In this document: one piece after another, positions 2,432 to 8,003 of the stretch
Position numbering within the stretch: the stretch's first letter is position 1
How the letters are laid out: each line of letters starts with the position of its first letter
DNA from: Gammaproteobacteria bacterium
GTDB lineage: Bacteria > Pseudomonadota > Gammaproteobacteria > GCA-2400775
NCBI GenBank assembly: GCA_002400905.2
Contig: NVRQ02000074.1
Coordinates: 1-44,721, forward strand
Length of the DNA: 44,721 bases
Direction of reading: 5' to 3'
Program-made: the position numbers and the translations under genes
Notes under the pieces: generated by a model
Seen by the model: only the letters and a program-made list of their open reading frames with translations
Told to the model about the DNA's origin: nothing
Database searches by the model: none

Positions 2432-3622
2432 TTATACGAGCAAAGAAAGACCGCGGTCTAAATCAGCCTTTAAATCCGCTACCTCTTCAAGGCCGACGGA
2501 TACCCTCACCAGCGAACGAGTAATACCCGCAAGCTCTCTGTCTTCTTCACTCAAGCGACCATGTGTTGTCGTCGCAGGATGCGTAATCGTACTTTTCACA
2601 TCACCCAAATTAGCGGTAATCGAAATAAACTGCGTATTATTGATCACCTTCCAGGCGTCATCTTGCCCACCTTTCACTTCAAATGAAACAATACCGCCAA
2701 AGCCTGACTGCTGTTTCTTCGCCAGCGCATGCTGAGGATGGGTTTCTAAACCTGGGTAGTTAACCTTTGCAACAGCGGGGTGTTGATCTAACCACTTCGC
2801 AACCGCCATGGCATTTTCACAATGACCCCGCATACGCACTGACAACGTTTCCAGTCCATGCAAAAATATCCATGCATTGAACGGACTCATCGTCGGGCCC
2901 GTTGTCCGGGCATAGCTATAAATATCACCACCTACCAGCGCTTTTGATCCGACCACGGCCCCACCGAGACCACGACCCTGCCCATCAATATATTTTGTTG
3001 CTGAATGAACAACAATATCCGCACCGAATTCCAACGGTCGTTGCAATACCGGTGAGCAAAAACAATTATCGACAACCAATAAAGCATCATTTTGATGAGC
3101 AATATCGGCCAAAGCCTCCATATCACCTACCTCGGTCAGAGGGTTACCTGGCGTCTCCAGAAAAAATAACCGTGTATTCGGCTGAATCGCCGCACGCCAC
3201 GCTTGCGTATCAACTAATGAAACAAAACTCGCTTCAACACCAAAGCGCGCCATAACGTTTTTAAATAATAATATGGTCGAACCAAAGACGTTCAGCGAAC
3301 ACACAACGTGATCGCCTGATTTGAGCAGGCCCATCATCACCGCATTGATTGCTGCCATACCTGAACTTGTTCCAACAGCGCATTCCCCCCCTTCCATAGA
3401 GGCCAAGCGCTCTTCAAACATGCGTACACTAGGGTTAGTAAACCGCGAATAGAGATTGCCGGGTTCTTCACCGGAAAAACGTGCTGCTGCTTGTTCCGCA
3501 CTATCGCAAACGAAACTTGATGTCGTATAAATTGATTCGCTATGCTCGCCTTCATGCGAGCGCGAAGTTCCGACTCGCACCGCCCGAGTACGAATACCTA
3601 ATTGAGACAAGTCTTTATCCAT
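2432..3622 (-). CDS. metZ: O-succinylhomoserine sulfhydrylase
   Basis: A 396-residue PLP enzyme of the Cys/Met metabolism family. MetZ converts O-succinylhomoserine and sulfide to homocysteine, the direct-sulfhydrylation route to methionine. The PLP lysine is K210 in 'VVHSATKYIDGQGRGLGG', wording that is typical of MetZ rather than MetB or MetC. 'NLYSRFTNPS' near 57-66 and the C-terminal 'SLVRVSVGLE' arginine motif are also present. In Pseudomonas metZ directly follows purF; here an accessory block of about 4.4 kb separates them, and metZ instead has its own promoter with a SAM-II-like riboswitch and terminator. This regulation supports the methionine-biosynthetic role. Confidence 0.95.
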   Translation of the reverse strand: MDKDLSQLGIRTRAVRVGTSRSHEGEHSESIYTTSSFVCDSAEQAAARFSGEEPGNLYSRFTNPSVRMFEERLASMEGGECAVGTSSGMAAINAVMMGLLKSGDHVVCSLNVFGSTILLFKNVMARFGVEASFVSLVDTQAWRAAIQPNTRLFFLETPGNPLTEVGDMEALADIAHQNDALLVVDNCFCSPVLQRPLEFGADIVVHSATKYIDGQGRGLGGAVVGSKALVGGDIYSYARTTGPTMSPFNAWIFLHGLETLSVRMRGHCENAMAVAKWLDQHPAVAKVNYPGLETHPQHALAKKQQSGFGGIVSFEVKGGQDDAWKVINNTQFISITANLGDVKSTITHPATTTHGRLSEEDRELAGITRSLVRVSVGLEEVADLKADLDRGLSLLV

Positions 3623-3716: not shown

Positions 3717-3761
3717 TAAAAAAACCCACTTATTTATCCGAAAACGATAGCTAAAGCGGGT
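3717..3761 (-). terminator. Rho-independent terminator in the metZ leader, with a competing antiterminator
   Basis: On the minus strand ACCCGC (3761-3756) can pair with GTGGGT (3729-3724), with TATC/GATA pairing inside, followed directly by seven T. The strand containing ACCCGC is also half of a perfect 10-bp alternative stem, AGCTAAAGCG (3776-3767) with CGCTTTAGCT (3758-3749). The two structures exclude each other. The GCTAAAG arm of the alternative stem belongs to the 3' part of the SAM-II aptamer, so ligand binding would free the terminator. Confidence 0.65.
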
Positions 3762-3820
3762 CCTCTCGCTTTAGCTGCATTTATTACGCGCCCGCAAGCT
3801 GAGTTTTTCAAATCCGGCGC
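3759..3820 (-). ncRNA. SAM-II (SAM-alpha) riboswitch upstream of metZ
   Basis: Read on the minus strand, the leader begins GCGCCGGATTTGAA, then AGCTTGCGGGCGC and GTAATAAATGCAGCTAAAG..GAGAGGA. This has the same order as the SAM-II pseudoknot: a GC-rich P1 arm, a GATTTAA-like loop, CTTGC, the other P1 arm, then (G)ATAAATG-AGCTAAA and a purine-rich tail. P1 would be GCGCC/GGCGC, and the AGCT in the loop can pair with the AGCT of AGCTAAAG to form the pseudoknot. The aptamer begins about where the promoter would start the transcript and lies about 140 bases before the metZ ATG. The assignment rests on recalled family sequence, not on a covariance model search. Confidence 0.75.
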
Positions 3821-3826
3821 AATTAA

Positions 3827-3855
3827 AGCTTATTTCTATATTAACAAGGTGTCAA
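3827..3855 (-). promoter_or_regulatory. Sigma-70 type promoter of metZ
   Basis: TTGACA (perfect -35, 3855-3850) is followed after 17 bases by TAAGCT (-10, 3832-3827; four of six matches to TATAAT). Transcription would begin near 3820, which is exactly the 5' edge of the riboswitch aptamer. Confidence 0.65.
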
Positions 3856-4070: not shown

Positions 4071-6392
4071 TCATATACCGAGATACCCACCATAAATCGT
4101 GCCTCCAACAATAGTCAATGATACCGTCAAACGACAAGCGGATGGAACAAAACCATGTGCCAACTGAAAGCTGTCCCAAAACCCTAGCTTGCGCTGCAAC
4201 TCATTCTCGTTTCCAGGCAATAAAATTGGATATTGTGAAGGGACGACTGCTAACTGCGGAGCATCGCCAGGAAGAGTACTTTTCAACAAATGTCTGCGCA
4301 AAGATTCTTCAGTGTTAATAAGCTCTTCAAGAGTAACCTCAGCAAGCACCTGTAAAGCATTGGCAACCTGACTAGCTGATTCGTAAGCAGGTGAGCACCA
4401 ATCACCTAAATTATTCTTGTCAACCTGCACAAAATCAAAGATTAGGCATTGTTCAGACCAGCTTTCTACTCCTAGCGCCTCAGTAATAATAGACGGCAGC
4501 TGTATTTCGACAATCCGCGCTGACACCTCATTCATCACACCTTGAAATTTCACACAAACCTTTAACAAGCGCTTTCTCTCCCCAGCGCTGACTTTTCCGT
4601 CCGCCATAATTATTTGCCAGGTATTCTCAAATAACGCCCGTTCATCGTCGACGCATGCACTAAGATGTTCAACACAATGCAATAAGTGAATAAGGCTCAG
4701 CAGATATTCTTTCCAACCTCCACCTAGCTGCTCAGCAGCTTGCAAGTGTGCTCGCCGACAACTTGCATCATGTGCCATTAACCTACTGCCTACTTCTCTG
4801 CGCTCTGTAACAATTTGTTTAATCGCATCAGGTATCTCGTCTTTTCTAAGCTCCTCTCCACGATGACGAATGACGCCACCAGAAGGCTTCAGCTCACCGC
4901 GGCCTAATGCTTCCAGTGTGCTACTCTCAACATCGAGGTTTCGCGCTGCCTCTAAATCATCAGCTAATGACTCAGGATATAACTTTGCCAACGACTCAGT
5001 CGCACTAGCACTCAAGTTCCCGCCGCTAAGTATAGCGTCAATATCAGAGAAATTCCTGACAGAGCTTCGGCTAAGATAAACACCTCGATATTCAGGCGAA
5101 TACCATGCTTTGGCATAGCGTTGCTTGACCGCTTCAAAAGGAGATGCTAACTGCATTTTCTCCACTTTTTCTTCTGGATAGAAAATCAAACTAAGTTTCC
5201 TCCTTAAACAACCTGGGTCAACAAATAATTCCCATGAAGAACGGTCATCAATATCTGCTGCAACATAAGTCTGTTTCGCATTTTCCTCACGATCACTATT
5301 CGCAGGGTGAGTTGCCCACATCTGTGGTGGCAACGCAGACTCTTCATGGAATATGCGATGATCATGACGATTTAAATCTGGCATCTTTGGTGTTGCAGCA
5401 TATTCAGGGTTATTTAATACTCGTCTCATTTCTTCAATTACAGCAGTTTGTGCTAAAAATATATCTTCGAGTATCTTTTCGTCCGCAGCCTCTTTACTCG
5501 CAATACTTAACGCCGTCTGCCATGCCTGGTCTGCATTCTGCAGCTTGTGCAGCGCATGAATCAAAGCATCACTACCTGTAATAGACACCGCCACCAAGTC
5601 AGCATTAAATTCCATCTCACGACTTAAGGCACGCTCAGCTATAATTACTAATTTGAATAGAGAATCCATTAATGAACGAATCGACCATACAATCAAAGTA
5701 AGCAACCAACCAAGCCACGCAATACGAATATCAATTCGTGAAACAAACTTCAATAAGGAATCCAGCCAATCTCGTGTACCCACCATATGACTAATTATCT
5801 GTTGCGCCGTGTAAACCCAACGACCCACCATCATCGATCCTTGTGAAAAATGACCAAATTCATGAGCAAGCACCGCTTTAAACTCACCTAAGTTTAGGAC
5901 ATTTACTAAACCCAAACCTACAATGAGATTCTTTTTCGAAGGAAAAATAAGATTCACTAGTGACAAATCATAAAATACAGCGGCATTGACTTCTGAGGTA
6001 ATAAACACTCGATGAGGCTTAGGTGCGCCTATCTCATCTGACAACGTGTAGAGAAATTCAAATAAATGTGGCTCATCCTCACTGCTAACCTCGACACCCC
6101 CAGGCTGCCCAACCTTACGTACCGCGAAAAGCGATTTCGCCATAAATACCGTTAACAATATGACGCTGCCCGTAATAACCATCTGCCACAAGCCAGCATG
6201 ACCCGCTTTAATCGCCAACATACCTTTATAGCTAACCAGTCCAAAATAGAATGTCATAGCAACATAAAAGCCAATAAAACAAACCAACCCAGCCAGTGCA
6301 AACCACGCCCGCCTTTTATAACTTGCTCTCGCTTCGGTAAGCTCGCTAGGTACACCCTGCGGGCTCTCCGGATAGTACGACTGCTTCGACAT
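4071..6392 (-). CDS. Membrane-bound M48-family zinc metalloprotease with long C-terminal region
   Basis: A 773-residue protein. Hydrophobic segments at about 30-58 and 68-90 precede the peptidase domain. The zinc site is HEFGH at 177-181, with E261 in 'SREMEFNADLVAV' as the likely third ligand, the M48 (HtpX/Ste24-like) arrangement. More hydrophobic stretches lie at about 225-255 and at the extreme C-terminus. Residues about 300-750 are soluble-looking and much longer than HtpX (about 290 residues); part of this region ('IMADGKVSAGERKRLLKVCVKFQG') resembles a TerB-like helical segment. It probably cleaves membrane or membrane-proximal proteins, substrate unknown. AAGGAAG about 7 bases before ATG supports the start. 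The gene stands alone in the block separating purF from metZ and may be acquired. Confidence 0.8.
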   Translation of the reverse strand: MSKQSYYPESPQGVPSELTEARASYKRRAWFALAGLVCFIGFYVAMTFYFGLVSYKGMLAIKAGHAGLWQMVITGSVILLTVFMAKSLFAVRKVGQPGGVEVSSEDEPHLFEFLYTLSDEIGAPKPHRVFITSEVNAAVFYDLSLVNLIFPSKKNLIVGLGLVNVLNLGEFKAVLAHEFGHFSQGSMMVGRWVYTAQQIISHMVGTRDWLDSLLKFVSRIDIRIAWLGWLLTLIVWSIRSLMDSLFKLVIIAERALSREMEFNADLVAVSITGSDALIHALHKLQNADQAWQTALSIASKEAADEKILEDIFLAQTAVIEEMRRVLNNPEYAATPKMPDLNRHDHRIFHEESALPPQMWATHPANSDREENAKQTYVAADIDDRSSWELFVDPGCLRRKLSLIFYPEEKVEKMQLASPFEAVKQRYAKAWYSPEYRGVYLSRSSVRNFSDIDAILSGGNLSASATESLAKLYPESLADDLEAARNLDVESSTLEALGRGELKPSGGVIRHRGEELRKDEIPDAIKQIVTERREVGSRLMAHDASCRRAHLQAAEQLGGGWKEYLLSLIHLLHCVEHLSACVDDERALFENTWQIIMADGKVSAGERKRLLKVCVKFQGVMNEVSARIVEIQLPSIITEALGVESWSEQCLIFDFVQVDKNNLGDWCSPAYESASQVANALQVLAEVTLEELINTEESLRRHLLKSTLPGDAPQLAVVPSQYPILLPGNENELQRKLGFWDSFQLAHGFVPSACRLTVSLTIVGGTIYGGYLGI

Positions 6393-6515
6393 GACAATAC
6401 TTCCTTTTAAGAAAACTACGAATCAAAATAATTGCGTATATCCAGCCCTCGAAATATTTCTCCTAAGCCAAGATAAGCTTCAATTTAAATCAAACGTAAA
6501 ATTTTTTATTTAATC

Positions 6516-7613
6516 GCGGATTTCAGTCATAAGTGCGCCACGCATATTTCATGACGCTAGTTTCATTTTTGCATAAACTTCTTCAGGTGTTTTAAAGCCA
6601 AGAAGTTTTCGCGGTCTTTGATTCAAACGAGTTCGTATATCCATGACCTGTTTTGTAGTCACTTTATCTAAAGGCTTATCTTTGGGCAAGTATTGCTCCC
6701 CAAGGGCACGTGGTCGAATAAGTCCGTTGTGGTTTTCATTCAAACCACGCTCCCATGACCGGTAGGGGTGTGCAAAATACGTGTCAACATTCAATGCCTC
6801 GGCTACTTTTTCGTGGTAGGAAAATTCTTTGCCATGATCAAAAGTGATTGTGTGCAACACTTTTTTATAAGGCTTAAACATCGCTATAATCGCTTCTGTC
6901 ACGCCTTCCGCATGTTTGGAGAAACATGGGAAATTAAGTTTGATTTGCTAACACGTTCGGTCAGCGTCACTAGTACGCCCTTGTGCCCTTTACCAATCAC
7001 AGTGTCCGCCTCCCAGTCACCTATACGGGTTTTCTCATCAACGATAGCCCGCCGCTCTTCTATGCTAATACGATTGCCTATCTGGCCGCGTGCATCAGGC
7101 GACCTTGCCCGCCGTTTATATTTTTTATGCTGTAGATTTTTGTGTAAATCGCCTCCTTTGGCTTTGTCTTCCCTAGTAAAGTGATAAATACTGCCAGGGC
7201 AAACAGCCTCTAGCCCCTCATCCAGCAGCCGCCCCTATATTTGTTCTGGACTCCATTGATGCGACAGATCATGGGTTATTCGCACCACCATCGATTCCGT
7301 CATCTTTATTGACTTCGGCTTGTTCTGATGCCGACTTTGCGCAAGATAAGCAGCTTGCTGCGGTCGATACCCTCTTAATCCAGTGTTCCTGACTAACTCT
7401 CTTTTTATGGTGCTCTCATGTCGGTCTAATTCCTGTGCAATGAATGTATTGGAAAATCCAGCTTTCTTATAGGCGTAAATCTGGTATCGTTCCTCTTGGG
7501 TCAGGTGGGTATAGTACTTGCTCATAAGTCTCTCACATTGTGTTTTAGTCGACCAGTGAGAGTACTCTCTGGCCCAACTATTTCAATGTGGCGCATTTAT
7601 GACTGAAATCCGC
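6516..7613 (-). mobile_element. IS30-family insertion sequence, inactivated
   Basis: The ends form an inverted repeat: GCGGATTTCAGTCATAAGTG... from 6516 and its complement ending at 7613 match over about 26 bases with one mismatch. The element is about 1.1 kb, normal for IS30, and carries one transposase frame that is now broken. No convincing short target duplication is seen at the junctions. Confidence 0.85.
6549..7525 (-). pseudogene. IS30-family transposase, broken by a stop and a frameshift
   Basis: The N-terminal piece (7525-7238) starts MSKYYTHLTQEERYQIYAY and has the IS30 helix-turn-helix (FIAQELDRHESTIKREL). An in-frame TAG at 7235-7237 interrupts 'SPEQI-GRLLDEG'. Reading on, 'IGDWEADTVIGKGHKG' supplies the first catalytic Asp. 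A frame change near 6925-6945 is needed to enter 'VTEAIIAMFKPYKK', then 'TFDHGKEF' (second Asp) and 'ENHNGLIR' (Glu) complete the DDE triad. Both lesions must be bridged to make a full transposase, so the copy is inactive by itself. Its intact ends could still be moved by a related IS30 enzyme. Confidence 0.88.
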
Positions 7614-7682
7614 TTTTTTTTCAAAAGCTTAGACATTAAATTAAATATAGGGTTATCACTATTAGTTAGTATTGTTAGCGAC

Positions 7683-8003
7683 CTACCAAAGTTCATAACC
7701 ACTAATAAAGTACAAATTGATGGCACCCACCACAAGCGACACAATAATTATTACTTTCCAAATAGTCGGATATTGACCAAAGTTCTGTGGCTTATTAACG
7801 CCGAATTTCTTCATCATTTCCTCACCATCAATGGGGAAGAAACTCATCCCTACACCTACTATTGAAAAAGCAGGAAATAATAAGCTAAATGCCACATAAT
7901 AAGTTCCCGTGTCTAAGGCTTGCAGCCAAAAGTAAGAGGTTGCCCAAGCAAAACCCAATGCCATTATTGCGCCTATTAATCTTTGGTTATTTATCGATGG
8001 CAT
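7683..8003 (-). CDS. Small integral membrane protein of unknown function
   Basis: A 106-residue protein with three hydrophobic segments, at about 9-28, 35-55 and 82-102, separated by a polar loop (FPIDGEEMMKKFGVNKPQNFG at 56-76). I do not recognise a named family. The ATG is preceded by an AGGAGGGTGATG-like run (CTAGGAGGGTG on the minus strand), a strong ribosome site, which argues that it is expressed. It lies between the dead IS30 copy and purF in the accessory block, in AT-rich DNA. Confidence 0.6.
   Translation of the reverse strand: MPSINNQRLIGAIMALGFAWATSYFWLQALDTGTYYVAFSLLFPAFSIVGVGMSFFPIDGEEMMKKFGVNKPQNFGQYPTIWKVIIIVSLVVGAINLYFISGYELW

Follow-up and report, generated by a model that had tools for sequence, protein, structure and literature searches.

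The metZ gene in this gammaproteobacterial genome is very probably controlled by a SAM-II riboswitch whose expression platform acts as an OFF switch on transcription, as judged from sequence comparison and modelled folding. The leader lies on the minus strand of the DNA that we analysed (44,721 nucleotides, here termed the window), where it runs from 3855 to 3717, and its seven-U end is 95 nt 5' of the metZ start codon. By covariance model and by conservation it is an RNA of the SAM-II class and would be expected to bind SAM. This is a good but unsurprising identification, as the same switch precedes metZ in many gammaproteobacteria. It places a well-supported SAM-II switch that falls below the Rfam threshold in an uncultured gammaproteobacterial genus, and that genus is distinguished by a single additional G where P1 meets the SAM-binding loop.

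Promoter, leader and controlled gene

The features of the leader and its surroundings are as follows.
3827 to 3855, minus strand: sigma-70-type promoter, assigned from sequence
3855 to 3850, minus strand: -35 element TTGACA, perfect consensus
3832 to 3827, minus strand: -10 element TAAGCT, three of six positions as in TATAAT
3768 to 3821, minus strand: SAM-II aptamer, assigned from the R1 model (see below), a sub-threshold RF00521 match and P1 covariation in relatives
3820 to 3816 with 3792 to 3788, minus strand: helix P1, GCGCC with GGCGC
3815, minus strand: additional G separating P1 from the conserved GAUUUGA
3814 to 3808, minus strand: loop L1, GAUUUGA
3799 to 3794 with 3775 to 3768, minus strand: predicted P2 (pseudoknot), GCUUGC with GCUAAAGC
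3786 to 3776, minus strand: L3
3749 to 3776, minus strand: antiterminator hairpin AGCUAAAGCG / CGCUUUAGCU, 10 bp with a loop of 8
3718 to 3761, minus strand: intrinsic terminator, ACCCGCUU (3761 to 3754) with AAGUGGGU (3731 to 3724), plus seven U (3724 to 3718)
2432 to 3622, minus strand: metZ, O-succinylhomoserine sulfhydrylase, the controlled gene (NCBIfam NF006003)
4071 to 6392: M48 peptidase reading frame, between the metZ leader and purF (interval 4071 to 8003)

The original prediction of a perfect TTGACA followed by a 17-nt spacer was correct in its pieces and coordinates. The -10 element matches the consensus at only three of six positions, and because of this the automatic promoter scan does not list it. 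The -35 element, the spacing and the -10 block are kept in three relatives from the genus; the contig of the fourth stops short of the promoter.

The identity of the downstream gene was also borne out, with the metZ product scoring 669.7 bits against NF006003 (cut-off 522). A DUF4147/MOFRL glycerate kinase-like gene (1198 to 2412, same strand) begins 19 bases past metZ and may be co-transcribed with it under the riboswitch. In the closest named relative, the sister species Gammaproteobacteria bacterium M_MetaBat.81 (L009; MetZ identity 92%), the end of purF lies directly upstream of the metZ leader, so that purF and metZ are adjacent. In the window purF is about 4.5 kb farther upstream, with the M48 peptidase gene and other reading frames intervening. 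One of the reading frames between metZ and purF, a short one at 6549 to 6902, resembles a transposase fragment by eye and has no Pfam match.

The aptamer and its genus-specific G

After the promoter, the minus strand of the leader reads U-GCGCC-G-GAUUUGA-AAAACUCA-GCUUGC-G-GGCGC-G-UAAUAAAUGCA-GCUAAAGC-GAGAGGACCCGCUUUAGCU...AAGUGGGUUUUUUU. P1 is lengthened by a U-G pair, such that U3821 and 3820 to 3816 pair with 3792 to 3787. A plain minimum-free-energy fold of the leader was uninformative (z -1.1).

The covariance check on the SAM-II assignment gave different answers with two models. RF00521 (SAM_alpha) scored the leader at 21.1 bits (E 0.0096 in a scan of all Rfam families over 301 nt), under its gathering cut-off of 36 bits, which is a database threshold and not a biological feature. 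The aptamer is nevertheless the best RF00521 match in its genome, at a sub-cut-off E of 0.016. As RF00521 could not settle the assignment by itself, we built a second covariance model, R1, from 59 SAM-II aptamers that all come from outside the genus of the window; about two-thirds were taken from a class-wide RF00521 scan and the others from metZ leaders chosen by sequence pattern. R1 matched the window at 66.9 bits (E 6.7e-17). In the genome of the window this is its single match (E 3.2e-15; the runner-up has E 0.2), and it found a match in all five genomes of the genus.

The nucleotides of the SAM pocket that are fully conserved (U10-U12, U20-C23 and G42-A47; PMC3764141) are, by sequence comparison, all present in the window aptamer. 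The proposal of a SAM-II-type aptamer is supported. P1 covaries among the 59 relatives, with four pairs changed on both sides and a covariation score reached by none of 500 shuffles. The strands of P2 are complementary, and its four core pairs are kept in 59/59 relatives; as this core never varies, covariation cannot test P2. In A. tumefaciens, published mutants back the pseudoknot (PMC1273637).

The extra G at 3815, overlooked in the original prediction, is present in all five aptamers of the genus and in none of 83 others, and is an insertion in the alignments to both RF00521 and R1. It explains part of the low Rfam score, and at the P1/L1 junction it could make for a weaker aptamer. A leader derived from SAM-II, in which the G has altered the aptamer towards poor SAM binding or towards another ligand while the attenuator was retained, would account for the fixation of the G in the genus, its absence from the other 83 aptamers and an RF00521 score in the low tail. 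However, every pocket nucleotide is kept, P1 and the predicted P2 are both complete, the G sits outside the SAM-touching nucleotides, the controlled gene is still metZ and the leader is kept across the genus. We therefore consider an altered aptamer unlikely, and favour a SAM-responsive SAM-II leader.

The predicted expression platform

The antiterminator is as originally described, with 10 perfect base pairs between 3776 to 3767 and 3758 to 3749 (predicted -14.1 kcal/mol). It borrows the 3' strand of P2, and the pairing is preserved in relatives through G-U changes. The terminator and its seven U are likewise present, although the stem has 8 bp including one G-U pair rather than the 6 bp first proposed; it is predicted at -14.2 kcal/mol before pairing of the U-tract is counted. 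The terminator is conserved in the leaders of all five genus members, and the arrangement as a whole is kept within the genus. Antiterminator and terminator are mutually exclusive, since both need CGCUU.

The comparison of folding with and without the pseudoknot came out as the switch model predicts. In length-by-length folding with P2 free, the antiterminator stays the most stable fold until nearly the whole U-tract has been made; with P2 locked, the terminator forms once its 3' arm exists. Transcription would start a few bases 5' of P1. At low SAM, the P2 3' strand GCUAAAGC would pair with the downstream GCUUUAGC to form the antiterminator, and polymerase would continue into metZ. Binding of SAM would lock P2 and free the downstream CGCUU, which would join the ACCCGCUU/AAGUGGGU stem with its U-tract and switch metZ off. 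We infer from this modelling a kinetic SAM-off attenuator, with termination dependent on bound SAM. The originally proposed SAM-off switch at the level of transcription is thus supported by the overlapping helices, the predicted folding and conservation in the genus. Weighing against it are the sub-cut-off RF00521 score, the extra G at the P1/L1 junction, the weak -10 element and a P2 core without covariation.

The same two hairpins could in principle be a plain leader attenuator or a constitutive terminator that responds to no ligand, because by themselves they would form in any transcript. Such a leader would leave the conserved core of GAUUUGA, GCUUGC and AAUAAAU without a cause, and it does not account for a SAM-II match at E 6.7e-17. 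We regard it as highly improbable and retain the SAM-II OFF switch.

Distribution and relation to known elements

We examined 369 genomes from across the GTDB class, which takes in the former Betaproteobacteria. RF00521 matched 117 of these at E 0.001 and 30 above its cut-off, while R1 matched 171 at 1e-6; thus the RF00521 cut-off performs badly in this class. Thiofilum flexile (L065) is among the named carriers, as are several 'Gammaproteobacteria bacterium' metagenome-assembled genomes. Among 88 distinct readable aptamers, 75 have a metZ-like reading frame downstream, and 61 of those 75 have a terminator. Other aptamers lie before metK (L128, L147, L174), metF (L176, L191) and a metN-like gene (L153), names that reflect translations judged by eye and not a profile search. 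None of the metZ leaders of Acinetobacter, Thiomicrorhabdus and Marinobacter in the set matched the SAM-II sequence pattern, and the distribution is therefore patchy.

SAM-II in gammaproteobacteria had already been reported in 2005 (PMC1273637, with Coxiella in the alignment) and 2007 (PMC2258182). According to the latter, SAM-II in alpha- and betaproteobacteria is most often associated with a transcription terminator. The suggestion that a transcriptional SAM-II on a gammaproteobacterial metZ is noteworthy does not survive these reports and the 171 of 369 genomes that carry the element: SAM-II attenuation of metZ is common in the class, not exceptional.

Several variations were seen among the relatives. 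AUUGC replaces CUUGC in the P2 5' strand at nine loci (L145, L156, L162, L185, L186, L193, L196, L197 and L201). Locus L130, in genome G250, has two SAM-II aptamers in tandem before a reading frame without recognized identity; by R1, G250 has five matches and G361 has six. In about one-third of relatives (L021, L044, L091, L151, L180, L203, L207 and others), UCAGCUU in the aptamer is perfectly complementary to AAGCUGA just 5' of the terminator 3' arm, and the two might form a second antiterminator helix. Its mean of 4.97, against 4.69 +/- 0.07, is above all 300 cross-sequence permutations, with relatedness uncontrolled. We set this helix aside because AGCUGA also lengthens the terminator stem, the pairing is absent from the window and relatedness is uncontrolled.

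At the window (3719 to 3849, plus strand), L209 and L210, the strand opposite the SAM-II leader gives a match to RF02424 (Bp2_287, 'Burkholderia sRNA'). The window might accordingly encode a plus-strand antisense small RNA of this type, but the match reaches 23.1 bits against a cut-off of 70, and the promoter and U-tract indicate the minus strand. Moreover, the reverse complement of the RF02424 consensus, GCGTC-GATTTGA-TTT-CAGCTTGC-G-GACGC-...-GCTAAAG, holds the full SAM-II core. In the search of the class, RF02424 matched one genome (G159, E 1e-6; two genomes of its order were searched), in which this site and an R1 match overlap on opposite strands. An antisense RNA is thus extremely unlikely here, and the minus-strand SAM-II leader remains our reading. 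From its consensus, RF02424 is probably a SAM-II relative filed on the wrong strand. In PMC3521395, Bp2_287 was located 5' of metZ and metX, and its neighbours include purF.

A betaproteobacterial metX/metZ leader element with a pseudoknot and terminator (PMC4239095) is, compared by description, perhaps also a SAM-II relative. We lean towards the view that one SAM-II group of Gamma- and Betaproteobacteria has been split in three, as RF00521, the mis-stranded RF02424 and a 'metXZ element' called novel; if it is one group, RF00521 misses most members at its cut-off. In PMC4239095, Rhizobiales and Rhodobacterales are the only groups reported to have SAM_alpha, as would be expected if the threshold is too strict for the GTDB class. 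With a model tuned to members of this class, many more SAM-II RNAs would be annotated; an orphan regulatory element and an 'sRNA' family assigned to the wrong strand would probably also find their place.

Compared with known systems, the window leader shares with RF00521 SAM_alpha, the metA motif of PMC1273637, the order of P1, GAUUUGA loop, CUUGC, L3 and predicted GCUAAA pseudoknot, together with a methionine gene downstream, a promoter directly before P1 and a terminator after P2; it differs in the extra G between P1 and L1 and in its sub-cut-off score. SAM-V, described from Cand. Pelagibacter and marine metagenomes (PMC2704228), has a similar pseudoknot and binding core but lacks the last 3' pairing element of most SAM-II RNAs, and was absent from the results of the Rfam scan on the leader. 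Bp2_287 has the SAM-II core in reverse complement and the same position upstream of metZ or metX, but is filed on the opposite strand and has a longer L3. The metXZ element shares the metX or metZ leader position and the combination of pseudoknot with terminator and antiterminator, and was published as a separate element. The Sinorhizobium meliloti metZ riboswitch (PMC9373788) has the same target and the same predicted SAM-driven termination of transcription; it is alphaproteobacterial and its effects were measured at the RNA level, whereas the window leader is known from sequence and folding.
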